Shown: piece by piece, positions 17,039 to 21,112 of the stretch | How the letters are laid out: every line of letters begins with the position of its first letter | Position numbering within the stretch: the stretch's first letter is position 1 | Origin: an uncultured Alphaproteobacteria bacterium | Lineage (GTDB): Bacteria; Pseudomonadota; Alphaproteobacteria; HIMB59; GCA-002718135 | NCBI GenBank assembly: GCA_902623255.1 | Contig: CACNSY010000005.1 | Location: 1-64,000, forward strand | Length of the DNA: 64,000 nt | Reading direction: 5' to 3' | Notes under the pieces: model-generated | Database searches by the model: none | What the model was told of the DNA's origin: nothing | Seen by the model: only the letters and a program-made list of their open reading frames with translations | Made by a program: the position numbers and the translations under genes

Positions 17039-17349
17039 TGAAACCTGGAGAAATAATAACAAAGCAAAATAGTGATATTAATTTGAACAATGAAAGAAAA
17101 TCAATAACTTTAAAAGTTTCAAATAGTGGGGATCGGCCAATTCAAGTTGGGAGTCATTATCATTTTGCAGAAACAAATGAATATTTAAAATTTGATAGAG
17201 AAAAATCAAATGGTATGCGTTTAGATATACCATCTGGCACAGCTGTTCGGTTTGAACCTGGTCAATCAAAAGATGTAGAATTAATTCAAATTTCAGGAAA
17301 TAGAAAGATATTTGGTTTTAATAAAAAAGTTATGGGTCAATTGAAATGA
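17038..17349 (+). CDS. ureB: Urease subunit beta
   Basis: The 103-residue protein has the UreB signature: PGEIITK at the N-terminus, [21 protein letters not shown], then [16 protein letters not shown] and the C-terminal [12 protein letters not shown]. The length is typical. It is a structural subunit of the urease trimer. Overlaps of 1 base with ureA and 4 bases with ureC indicate tight translational coupling. Confidence 0.97.
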
Positions 17350-19052
17350 AAAAAATAAAAAGAGAAGCTTATGCCGATATGTATGGGCCAACAACTGGTG
17401 ATAAGGTTAGACTTGCTGACACTGAATTATTTATTGAAGTGGAAAAAGATTTAACAACGTATGGAGAAGAAGTAAAATTTGGTGGTGGTAAAGTTATTCG
17501 AGATGGAATGGGGCAATCTCAAGTATCTCGTAAAGATGGTGCTGTTGATACAGTTATAACAAATGCCTTAATAGTAGATGTAAATGGAATTTATAAAGCT
17601 GATATTGGTCTTAAGGATGGATTAATTTATGAAATTGGAAAAGCAGGTAATCCAGATACACAACCCAATGTAAATATTATTATTGGACCTGGAACAGAAA
17701 TAATTGCTGGTGAAGGTAAAATTATAACAGCTGGCGGATTTGACAGTCATATACATTTTATTTGTCCTCAGCAAATTGACGATGCACTTCATTCAGGAAT
17801 TACAACTATGTTAGGTGGAGGAACTGGTCCTGCACATGGCACATTAGCAACAACAGTTACTCCTGGGCCCTGGCATATAGAGAAAATGATACAATCAGCT
17901 GATGCATTTTCTATGAACTTAGCTTTTGCAGGAAAAGGAAATAGTTCATTACCTCAAGCACTTGAAGAACAAGTAATTGCTGGAGCAAGCTCACTAAAAT
18001 TACATGAAGATTGGGGTACAACCCCAGCAGCAATAGATAATTGTTTAAATGTAGCTGATGATCATGACATTCAAGTAATGATTCATACAGATACATTAAA
18101 TGAAAGTGGATTTGTCGAAAGTACAATTAAAGCAATTAATGGACGAACAATTCACGCTTTTCATACTGAAGGAGCTGGTGGGGGTCATGCACCGGATATA
18201 ATTAAAGTATGTGGTGAGCAGTATGTTATTCCGTCATCTACAAATCCAACAAGACCATACACAGTTAATACAGTTGAAGAACATTTGGATATGTTAATGG
18301 TTTGTCATCACTTAGATAAATCAATACCTGAAGATGTTGCTTTTGCAGAAAGTCGTATTCGAAAAGAAACTATTGCAGCAGAAGATATACTTCATGATAT
18401 GGGTGCCTTTTCAATTATAGCATCTGATAGTCAAGCAATGGGTCGTGTTGGTGAAGTTATTATTAGAACATGGCAAACAGCACACAAAATGAAAGTTCAA
18501 CGCGGGCAACTAAAAGAAGAGCAGGGTGATAACGACAATGTACGAGTTAAAAGATATATTGCTAAATATACAATTAATCCTGCAATAGCTCATGGTATTT
18601 CAGACCATATTGGAAGTATCGAAAAAAATAAACGTGCTGACATTGTTATTTGGGATAATGCCTTTTTTGGTGTTAAACCTGATATGATATTGCAAGGTGG
18701 AAGTATAGCATGCGCACAAATGGGCGATCCTAATGCATCAATTCCAACACCACAACCAGTGTACTCAAGACCAATGTTTTCTTCTTTCGGAAAATCATTA
18801 GAAAAATCTACTGTTACTTTTGTAAGTAAAGTTTCTTTAGATAAAGATTCATTTAAAAACTCTGGAGTAAGTAAATCTCTATTACCAGTTAAAAATATTA
18901 GAGAAATTTCTAAAAAAGATATGATATTAAATGATTATTGTCCAAAAATAGAAGTTAACCCAGAAACTTATGAAGTTTTAGCAGATGGTGAATTAATTAC
19001 TTGTGAACCAGCTAAAACATTACCTTTGGCTCAACGTTATTTCATGTATTAA
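17346..19052 (+). CDS. ureC: Urease subunit alpha (catalytic)
   Basis: The 568-residue catalytic subunit keeps the nickel centre: the HIHF metal pair, the carbamylated Lys in SLKLHEDWG, His in IHTDTLN and GGGHAPD, and the Asp in IASDSQAMG. The flap His is in MVCHHLDKS. It hydrolyses urea in the cytoplasm using two Ni ions. The length matches the family (about 567-570). It is followed by ureE after one base. Ni uptake and urea uptake genes are not seen in the window, so they must be elsewhere. Confidence 0.98.
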
Positions 19053-19501: not shown

Positions 19502-20137
19502 ATGAAAAAATTTAAAGATCCTCATCAAATATTACAAGTATGGTTTTCATCTTCTTTTCCTATTGGTTCTTACGCGTACTCTCATGGTTTAGAAGCGCTG
19601 ATAGATGATAAAAAAATTATTAATAAAGACGATGTTAAAGAATTTTTAGATGCGCTTTTATTTTATGGCACATTAAGAAATGATTATATTTTTATGAAGT
19701 CTATTTACAAAGGTAAGGAAATAAATGAATTAATTTTAGCAAGTTCTTCTTCGAAAGAAAGGCAAATAGAAATGATAGATATGGGAAATTCTTTTCGTAA
19801 AATCATGAAAGATAGTTGGGAATTATCTCTACCTGAAAATACATCATTTATATATTGTTTGGCAAAAGCTGGATTACATTTTGACATTAAGTTTGATGAT
19901 TTAATTAAGTTATATCTACAATCATTTATTTCTAATTTAATAAATGTATGTGTAAAACATATACCAATGTCACAAAAAGAAGGACAAAGTCTTAATGTTA
20001 TTTTTATTGATCAAATTCATGAATTTTTAACTCATTCAGAAAAACTGACTCTCAAAGATATAGGTACAACTTTTTTTATTGGTGATATTTTTGCCATTAA
20101 GCATGAAAACTTACAATCAAGGATTTATTTAACGTGA
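19502..20137 (+). CDS. ureF: Urease accessory protein UreF
   Basis: The 211-residue protein has the UreF opening [24 protein letters not shown] and the later helical segments typical of the family, ending in SRIYLT. UreF bridges UreD and UreG during nickel insertion. I place the start at ATG 19502, one base after the ureE stop, since the N-terminal motif then begins about 13 residues in, as usual. It overlaps the ureG start by 4 bases. Confidence 0.93.
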
Positions 20138-20745
20138 ATAATATAAATGGACCGTTAAAGGTTGGAATTGGTGGTGGAATAGGGACTGGTAAAACATGTT
20201 TAACAGAAGCTTTATGTCGTTATCTATCTAAAAAGGTTTCTATGGCAGTAATTTCAAATGATATTTATACTACTGAAGATGCAGAATACTTAATGAAAGC
20301 ACAGGTTTTACCTATAGAAAGAATAAAAGGTGTTGAAACTGGTGGCTGTCCACATACAGCCATAAGAGAAGATTGTAGTATTAATTTACTTGCAGTTGAT
20401 GAGATGAAAAAAAAATTTCCAGATCTAGAATTAATACTTATAGAATCTGGTGGTGATAATTTAGCTGCAACTTTTAGTCCAGAGTTAGTTGATTTAACAA
20501 TTTATATGATAGACGTGGCTCAAGGAGCAGATATACCGAGAAAAAAAGCACCAGCAATTAGGAAATCTGATTTATTAGTAATTAATAAAGTTGATCTTGC
20601 TCCATATGTTAATGTTGATCTAGAGCAGATGAAACAGGATGTGAATGAAGCCAGAAATGGTTTACCCTATATATTTGGTGAAATGAAAAATAATAATGGA
20701 ATTGAAAAAATCTCTGACTTCTTAATTTCTCAAGGTGGATTATAA
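20134..20745 (+). CDS. ureG: Urease accessory GTPase UreG
   Basis: The 203-residue GTPase has a P-loop reading GIGTGKT, the nickel-binding CPH motif in [13 protein letters not shown], the ESGGDNL switch, and NKVDLAPYV for guanine specificity. It hydrolyses GTP to drive nickel insertion into urease. The start is GTG at 20134, overlapping the ureF stop. It is the last gene of the operon and converges directly on the 85-residue gene with no spacer. Confidence 0.96.
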
Positions 20746-21003
20746 CTATTCTACTTTTTGTAAAGAATAAACCGTATCTGTACTATTAAATTTTGAATCA
20801 AATTCTTTTGATTTTGGATCATCAAATAAAGCATAAAATTTTTCTTCATCCGTCACATTACACATAATCATTACATGACCATCTTTCACGAAAGCCATAT
20901 CAAATGCATCTGTATATTTGGCAATATCATCTTTAAAAAAATTATATAACTCCATGTAATCTTCTTTAGTAAAAGATCCTTTGGATACAACACATAAATT
21001 CAT
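20746..21003 (-). CDS. 85-residue protein under a SAM riboswitch, function unknown
   Basis: This soluble 85-residue protein has a strand-helix-strand-strand-helix pattern: NLCVVSKG, then KEDYMELYNFFK, then FDMAFVKDGHVMIMCNV, then EEKFYALFD. It could adopt a ferredoxin-like dimer fold, but I recognise no family. A strong AGGAGAT precedes the ATG. Upstream on the same strand lie a hairpin with eight U residues and a SAM-II/SAM-V-type aptamer, so its expression should respond to S-adenosylmethionine. No other gene follows on this strand before ureG converges, so it is the only target. That suggests a role in methionine, SAM or sulfur metabolism. Confidence 0.75.
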   Translation of the reverse strand: MNLCVVSKGSFTKEDYMELYNFFKDDIAKYTDAFDMAFVKDGHVMIMCNVTDEEKFYALFDDPKSKEFDSKFNSTDTVYSLQKVE

Positions 21004-21014
21004 ATTTATCTCCT

Positions 21015-21053
21015 AAAAAAAATATCCTCACCATTTTTCTTAATGGGAGGATA
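21015..21053 (-). terminator. Terminator-like hairpin in riboswitch leader
   Basis: Read on the minus strand, TATCCTCCCAT pairs with ATGGTGAGGATA (one bulge) across an 8-base loop, and is followed directly by eight T residues at 21022-21015. The AGGAGA ribosome site begins one base later. It lies between the SAM aptamer and the 85-residue gene, so it is the likely expression platform. Premature termination here would remove the ribosome site. Confidence 0.7.
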
Positions 21054-21061
21054 AATTTATA

Positions 21062-21112
21062 CGTATCTCATTTTAGCTGCTTTTGAACCGCAATAGAGTC
21101 AAATCGTTCATA
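21062..21112 (-). promoter_or_regulatory. SAM-II/SAM-V-type riboswitch aptamer
   Basis: On the minus strand the RNA has a 5-bp P1 stem (UGAAC / GUUCA, plus-strand 21106-21110 and 21084-21088). Its loop reads GAUUUGACUCUAUUGCG, and GCAGCUAAAAUGAG follows after the stem. The SAM-II class has GAUUUAACCGUAUUGC in the loop and GUAGCUAAAAAGG downstream. The conserved GAUUU, UAUUGC and AGCUAAAA blocks all match. The pseudoknot covaries: CC/GG in SAM-II becomes CUC (21098-21096) with GAG (21069-21067) here. The marine SAM-V subclass is most likely given the host type. Confidence 0.8.

Follow-up and report, generated by a model that had tools for sequence, protein, structure and literature searches.

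A conserved SAM-II/SAM-V-type leader with an intrinsic terminator precedes the gene of a small barrel-like protein in one genus of uncultured marine Alphaproteobacteria

Results

Layout of the locus

The window (the whole 64,000-nucleotide stretch of DNA analysed here) carries on its minus strand a 52-nt leader element at 21113-21062, followed by a terminator hairpin, a Shine-Dalgarno sequence and an 85-codon gene (Table 1). By direct reading of the sequence, the element is made up of a P1 helix (UGAAC/GUUCA), the blocks GAUUU, GACUC, UAUUGC and AGCUAAAA, and a GAG strand. P1 has 5 bp in the window and 4 bp in most leaders of the class, and related elements have the same 1-nt P1 geometry. The pseudoknot helix P2a has 3 bp and is preceded by an unpaired U. 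The distance from its GAG strand to the AGGAG sequence is 52 nt, with the terminator between them. The terminator hairpin has a folding energy of -13.5 kcal/mol (z -3.9), and none of 200 shuffled sequences was equally stable. A promoter scan returned a single site, below the shuffle mean of 2.0, and gave no terminator, probably because the hairpin has a one-base bulge; folding does find the hairpin. The arrangement put forward in the original prediction was thereby confirmed, direct reading giving the three SAM-II/SAM-V blocks and P1 on the minus strand, and reading together with folding giving the hairpin with U8, then AGGAG, then ATG.

Table 1 Features of the leader and its gene, in window positions
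Feature	Position	Strand	Basis or remark
P1 helix, 5' strand UGAAC	21106..21110	-	partner GUUCA, 21084-21088
P1 helix, 3' strand GUUCA	21084..21088	-	starts 1 nt past UAUUGC
Conserved block GAUUU	21101..21105	-	47/47 leaders (fixed in the collecting pattern)
P2a pseudoknot helix, 5' strand CUC	21096..21098	-	partner GAG, 21067-21069
P2a pseudoknot helix, 3' strand GAG	21067..21069	-	complementary to CUC
Conserved block UAUUGC	21090..21095	-	47/47 leaders (fixed in the collecting pattern)
Conserved block AGCUAAAA	21071..21078	-	46 or 47 of 47 leaders per position; not fixed in the collecting pattern
Terminator hairpin	21024..21052	-	folding energy; conserved in the genus
U8 tract of terminator	21015..21022	-	direct reading; 8 or 9 T in 44/47 leaders
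Shine-Dalgarno AGGAG	21010..21014	-	AGGAG in 35/47 leaders, GGAG in 11 more
85-codon gene	20746..21003	-	ATG at 21003, stop at 20746

A converging ORF at 20134-20745, probably ureG judging by its sequence, directly abuts the 85-codon gene end to end. Elsewhere in the window, positions 17498-17782 of the minus strand matched the Rfam family 5_ureB_sRNA with 95.5 bits, antisense to an ORF at 17346-19052 that is presumably the urease large subunit. This match probably reflects conservation of the coding strand.

Conservation within one genus

A homologue of the gene was found in 66 of the 200 genomes searched, most of which are incomplete assemblies. By lineage, 48 of these belong to the genus of the window genome, 17 to a second family (f2) and one to a different genus of the window genome's family, and 65 of the 66 loci were fetched (G144 was left out). 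The leader was present in all 47 genus loci that have upstream DNA; the one remaining locus (L059) begins at a contig end and has none. The pattern with which the 47 leaders were collected fixes GATTT, TATTGC and GTT, and L059 was the sole genus locus that it missed. Across the genus loci, a stretch from 3 nt before GAUUU through the U tract is near-fixed, with few variable positions, and the DNA upstream of the leader varies freely. The spacing of aptamer, terminator and start codon is near-constant in 47/47 leaders, which suggests that aptamer and terminator are coupled.

A pattern search of 61 relatives found the leader in 17 of the 18 genus genomes with the gene; the eighteenth (G002, L027) has a single-base change in GCUAAA. 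In the same set, the leader was found in 0 of 19 genus genomes in which no gene was detected. Two genus loci, L058 (G048) and L062 (G091), have broken copies of the gene (frame break, stop) behind intact leaders that are counted among the 47; the breaks could be either sequencing error or decay. Outside the genus, the leader was absent from 22 of the 22 homologous loci examined (0/17 in the same order, 0/4 in another genus and 0/1 in a further family), and searching the whole of these loci with the leader pattern, or with a loose pattern for the core, gave no match. On the question whether homologues of the protein also lie behind SAM-type leaders, they do so throughout the genus, in 47/47 loci, and at none of the 22 loci beyond it.

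Covariation of P1 and P2a

The variable fourth pair of P1 was GC in 26, AU in 11, GU in 9 and CC in 1 of the 47 leaders, so that the pair is kept in 46/47 (Fisher P 1.3e-5 over 46 rows, with the CC row left out and relatedness ignored); the fifth pair forms in 23/47. We also aligned 39 elements, including 9 of the 47 leaders; the others were representatives selected from the remaining elements, and the second elements of two tandem loci (L231 and L232) were left out. Of 43 pattern matches, two had been dropped because their P1 was shorter than 3 bp (the metZ-type L114 and an additional reading within L233), a filter that raises the paired percentage. Over these 39 elements 93.8% of P1 cells were paired, compared to 55.4% in shuffles, and the P1 covariation score was 0.997, compared to 0.274 in shuffles and 0.15-0.21 with slid partners; for both measures, 0 of 500 shuffles were as high. 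Two of five covariation measures were no better than shuffles in the 39 elements; pairs with double changes numbered 5 against 4.4 in shuffles, and further pair types 15 against 14.3. GAUUU was unchanged across the 39 elements, which were also pattern-chosen.

The three P2a pairs formed in 47, 47 and 46 of the 47 leaders. Among 23 representatives, hand-picked and partly related, P2a complementarity was matched by 1 of 5000 re-pairings. Hence, the pseudoknot described in the original prediction as covarying is present as CUC/GAG and differs between classes, but within the class it is near-invariant and shows no covariation. All covariation figures are inflated by related sequences.

Chance expectation and Rfam models

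A descriptor combining the core blocks, a 3-bp P2a and a P1 with a 1-nt linker and no fewer than 4 bp matched once in the window. In 30 Mb of random sequence from a third-order Markov model, this full descriptor had 0 matches and the core with P1 likewise 0; the core by itself was present 18 times. In the genome of the window (G000), the bare core gave 1 match compared to 1 for a reversed control pattern, which is not significant. The full build exceeds chance, whereas the bare core in one genome does not.

The Rfam models, on which the original prediction had staked its test, formally went against it: neither at gathering cut-offs (36 bits for RF00521, 44 for RF01726 and 41 for RF01826) nor at permissive thresholds did any SAM model give a significant hit on the leader. 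RF01726 scored 15 bits against its 44, at rank 19 of the 48 matches listed in the genome, RF00521 was not reported for the leader, and RF01826 had no match in the window. Across 151 relatives, RF00521 gave matches in 22 genomes at E 0.001, only 4 of them above the cut-off, and RF01826 gave none in 151, where its positive controls were silent too. Of nine loci whose elements share this build, L180 alone reached E 0.5, with RF00521 (24.6 bits, below the cut-off); the nine include three metX leaders of the lineage (L183, L222 and L227), which had no Rfam SAM match at E 0.5. Because the metX leaders were missed as well, the Rfam test is insensitive in this lineage and its null result for the leader is not decisive.

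A lineage-specific covariance model

A covariance model (R1) was trained on 25 elements from the order, which came from Rfam matches and a pattern search and did not include the window locus; the training set was partly chosen by a pattern holding the same three blocks. In the window, R1 placed the leader first with 26.4 bits (E 4.6e-4), the next match having 14.8 bits (E 0.22). In the whole genome, the leader again came first (E 0.011), followed by a match of 25.1 bits lying 41 nt upstream of a MetX gene. This gene scored 512 bits with NF001209 (homoserine O-acetyltransferase MetX; cut-off 331) and 443 with TIGR01392, under its 500. The metX leader of the genome, of SAM-II type, lies at G000:C2:82537-82593 (L183) and was missed by Rfam. 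In the R1 alignment of the window leader P1 is improperly paired, and the R1 score therefore rests mainly on sequence.

Run on 19 leaders of the genus, R1 recovered every one, and run on 11 homologous loci from other genera it gave no match at the gene in any. Over 161 relatives it found matches in 90 at E 0.02, a search with a stricter filter in which the genome's own leader was unlisted. Among 20 further R1 matches, chosen by hand, 11 lay before MetX-like proteins and 1 before a metZ-like protein, as judged by eye, and 4 before small ORFs of unknown function; the remaining 4 were apparently false, one having no ORF downstream and three, including an identical pair, being of coding type. In the order, elements with this build precede genes for metX, homocysteine S-methyltransferase, OsmC and rhodanese/sulfurtransferase proteins; the last three were assigned with Pfam, as their scores fall short of the curated NCBIfam cut-offs. 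The anatomy of the element, the R1 model and the genes behind related elements together support the original assignment to the SAM-II/SAM-V pseudoknot kind of aptamer.

Related elements before tiny genes

SAM-II-type elements at L172 and L174 precede two rhodanese/sulfurtransferase-like genes with an export signal recognized by eye; the source of L174 (G035) is an assembly of 170 contigs with 3% contamination. A recurrent SAM-II/V-type element (e.g. UGUCCUGAUUUAGAUACUCUAAUUGCUGGGACA...GCUAAAGGAG) has a pseudoknot strand that is itself the Shine-Dalgarno sequence, with ATG a few nucleotides on. It was seen at L118, L119, L122, L123, L125-L128, L176, L177 (two elements) and L180, and also in another genus at L241. 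The ATG opens ORFs of 47-81 residues from several families without assigned function, among them one zinc-ribbon-like protein and one sharing a QREKxxGxKN motif. In the f2 genomes, SAM-II-like elements (AGCACUGAUUU...AUUGCGAGUGCU...GCAGCUAAAACGG) at L162-L171 precede ORFs of unknown function with roughly 50-70 residues. For one tiny f2 protein, searches of viral contigs and of phage records yielded no relatives, and PHROGs returned nothing for five proteins searched.

Tandem arrangements were seen at L231 and L232, where an aptamer and a terminator are followed by a second aptamer ending in AGGAG, with several tiny ORFs downstream in L231 and one in L232. A further tandem at L173 is cut off by the contig end within the second aptamer. 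The contigs of L231, L232 and L173 could be stray DNA in single-cell assemblies.

The 85-residue protein

As originally predicted, the small protein is the only gene downstream of the leader and has no assigned function: it matched 0 Pfam families (at E up to 1 and then up to 10) and had no match in NCBIfam or PHROGs. Pfam searches with 11 homologues gave three single-member rows at chance level (best E 0.029), none of them ABM, and a sequence search of solved structures gave one chance row (E 2.6). A viral origin was considered and rejected, the protein having no relatives in viral contigs.

The AlphaFold2 monomer model has a beta-alpha-beta-beta-alpha-beta order, with a mean pLDDT of 95.2 and a pTM of 0.81. 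The top Foldseek row was a putative ABM protein (E 8.7e-5, TM 0.50), and the VIA-align neighbours were YgiN (1r6y; Z 9.0, rmsd 2.4 over 83 residues at 6% identity), SnoaB (Z 8.8) and LsrG (Z 8.3). Designed ferredoxin folds and ribosomal protein S6 score close behind (Z 7.5-8.4); a Z near 8 may reflect a common arrangement, and a shared fold proves no function. The confidently predicted fold is ferredoxin-like, and its nearest relatives are probably the dimeric alpha/beta-barrel (ABM/YgiN/LsrG) proteins, with which it has the fold in common and no family-level sequence match. The five neighbours scanned at the f2 locus L051 include ABM, ydhR and SnoaL-like proteins, and DUF3764 was matched there with a score under the cut-off.

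Codon differences per pair were mostly synonymous within the genus (14.8 synonymous-only vs 6.9 amino-acid-changing) and within f2 (16.8 vs 5.4), and not mostly synonymous between the window gene and f2 (18.6 vs 26). Distant homologues without the leader occur in 4 of 61 genomes of another genus, and a further distant one, with 21% identity, lies in another family (L190). Cys4 is invariant in 9 of 9 aligned rows and replaced in the four homologues of the other genus. The protein of the window genome has 7 Met/Cys in 84 residues, compared to 4-8 in four relatives.

Pairing between aptamer and terminator

In the window, complementarity between the P2a strand and the 5' arm of the terminator (hand-chosen segments) was no better than in shuffles (p 0.57). 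The same test gave p 0.038, 0.042 and 0.049 for metZ-type SAM-II controls at L114 (called by NCBIfam), L115 and L238 (both called by eye), and p 0.014 and 0.24 for the tandem loci L232 and L231, respectively. Nascent-length folding of the window leader gave no stable antiterminator.

Two candidate antiterminators are not claimed: pairing of the P2a strand with the terminator arm is weak, ranging from 0 at 37 C to -2.2 kcal/mol at 18 C, and a longer 9-bp version ranges from +1.9 to -0.5. A SAM-ON design, with the CUC strand pairing to the downstream Shine-Dalgarno sequence, was unsupported in the window (p 0.38 and 0.54 with two shuffles); the same pairing gave p 0.06 and 0.15 in a second subclade.

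Discussion

The locus holds a real, conserved variant of the SAM-II/SAM-V kind that scores below the Rfam cut-offs, carries a terminator and, within a single genus, is linked to one small barrel-like protein. The aptamer anatomy, the genus-wide conservation, the coupling to the gene, the terminator and the Shine-Dalgarno sequence can be read directly from the DNA. With SAM-II (RF00521, RF01726) the leader shares P1, GAUUU, the AUUGC block with its 1-nt step to the P1 3' strand, GCUAAA and a predicted H-type pseudoknot, and SAM-II is likewise often followed by a terminator. It differs from SAM-II in scoring far under the Rfam cut-offs, in a P1 of mostly 4-5 bp, in the 3-bp P2a after an unpaired U, in a target that is no methionine gene, and in pairing between the P2 strand and the terminator arm that is not above chance. 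SAM-V (RF01826), found in marine bacteria, has the pseudoknot core, the ligand blocks and the marine alphaproteobacterial host in common with it. In SAM-V, according to PMC6061858, part of the Shine-Dalgarno sequence is hidden in the 3' part of the aptamer, whereas in the window it lies beyond the terminator, at 21014-21010. The first half of the tandem SAM-II/SAM-V arrangement before bhmT in Ca. P. ubique is similar (aptamer, hairpin, poly(U)), but the window locus has no second aptamer; the tandems before tiny genes at L231, L232 and L173 resemble the P. ubique tandem. SAM-V was first located before metY, mmuM and bhmT, as stated in PMC2704228. A search of the open-licence literature found no paper on the leader or on SAM riboswitches in the lineage.

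We consider it probable that the leader contains a diverged SAM-II/SAM-V-kind riboswitch that acts with an intrinsic terminator, and that the gene is switched off by termination when SAM is plentiful. SAM is the likely ligand, judging from the three intact ligand-pocket blocks; the pocket positions of P. ubique, as given in PMC11508383, would map onto the blocks of the leader. Plentiful SAM would bind the aptamer and lock P1 and the P2 pseudoknot, the locked aptamer would leave the terminator free, and transcription would end ahead of the start codon. Under a shortage of SAM or methionine, read-through by RNA polymerase would allow the 85-residue protein to be made. The OFF direction and control by termination are plausible by comparison with known systems: the S. 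meliloti metZ SAM-II is predicted in PMC9373788 to terminate transcription on SAM binding. Since no antiterminator pairing above chance was found in the window, SAM-gated termination is most likely by analogy only.

The same pairing result suits the main rival, which we regard as unlikely: a real aptamer followed by a terminator that SAM does not gate, i.e. a fixed attenuator producing a short leader RNA (a riboswitch sRNA like RA1/RZ of S. meliloti), with SAM affecting how stable the leader is or acting on those few transcripts that read through. For S. meliloti metA, PMC9373788 describes a strong terminator after the SAM-II aptamer, where no SAM-II-driven antiterminator could be predicted. 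The near-constant spacing from aptamer to start codon nevertheless speaks for coupling, and folding energies treat pseudoknots poorly. It is rather improbable that the SAM-II scaffold here binds SAH, another adenosyl compound or something else, in which case the gene need not belong to SAM metabolism. SAM-I variants that reject SAM and bind spermidine are described in PMC10853860, the target is no known SAM gene, and Rfam does not recognise the element; however, all three SAM-pocket blocks are unchanged in the leader, and the genome's own metX leader shares this build, differing by a single base in the middle block (CTTGC for ATTGC). We give very little credence to the reading that there is no riboswitch at all and that a conserved leader, be it a protein site or a plain attenuator, resembles SAM-II by chance: the Rfam scores are at noise level, as this would have it, but the absence of descriptor matches from random sequence, the R1 ranks and the compensatory P1 change within the class all oppose it.

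Under the preferred reading of a SAM-II/SAM-V-kind riboswitch with a terminator, the gene product is probably a small alpha/beta-barrel protein induced in sulfur or SAM limitation, and the SAM-type leader in front of it makes it a candidate part of the sulfur/methionine response. The broader idea of a general SAM or sulfur enzyme is weakened because homologues outside the one genus lack the leader. In sulfur-limited Ca. P. ubique, genes behind SAM riboswitches rise, and two small genes of unknown function rise later, as reported in PMC5069961. We tentatively suggest, with somewhat less than even confidence, that the SAM-sensing riboswitches of the order form a regulon reaching well beyond methionine synthesis, from metX to the 85-residue barrel protein and the tiny-protein families. 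Such a regulon might, equally tentatively, take in protein families of roughly 47-81 residues, some of them behind tandem transcriptional and Shine-Dalgarno-hiding aptamers. The tiny genes behind related elements are a more surprising lead than the window locus itself.

Most SAM-II/V-type elements examined in this lineage, the three metX leaders included, fall under the cut-offs of the current Rfam SAM models, and SAM regulons in marine genomes may therefore be undercounted. An unannotated protein family of uncultured ocean bacteria gains a testable cue, namely SAM or sulfur shortage. If the wider regulon is true, the response of streamlined ocean bacteria to a lack of SAM or sulfur would have a so far undescribed branch, made up of these tiny proteins.
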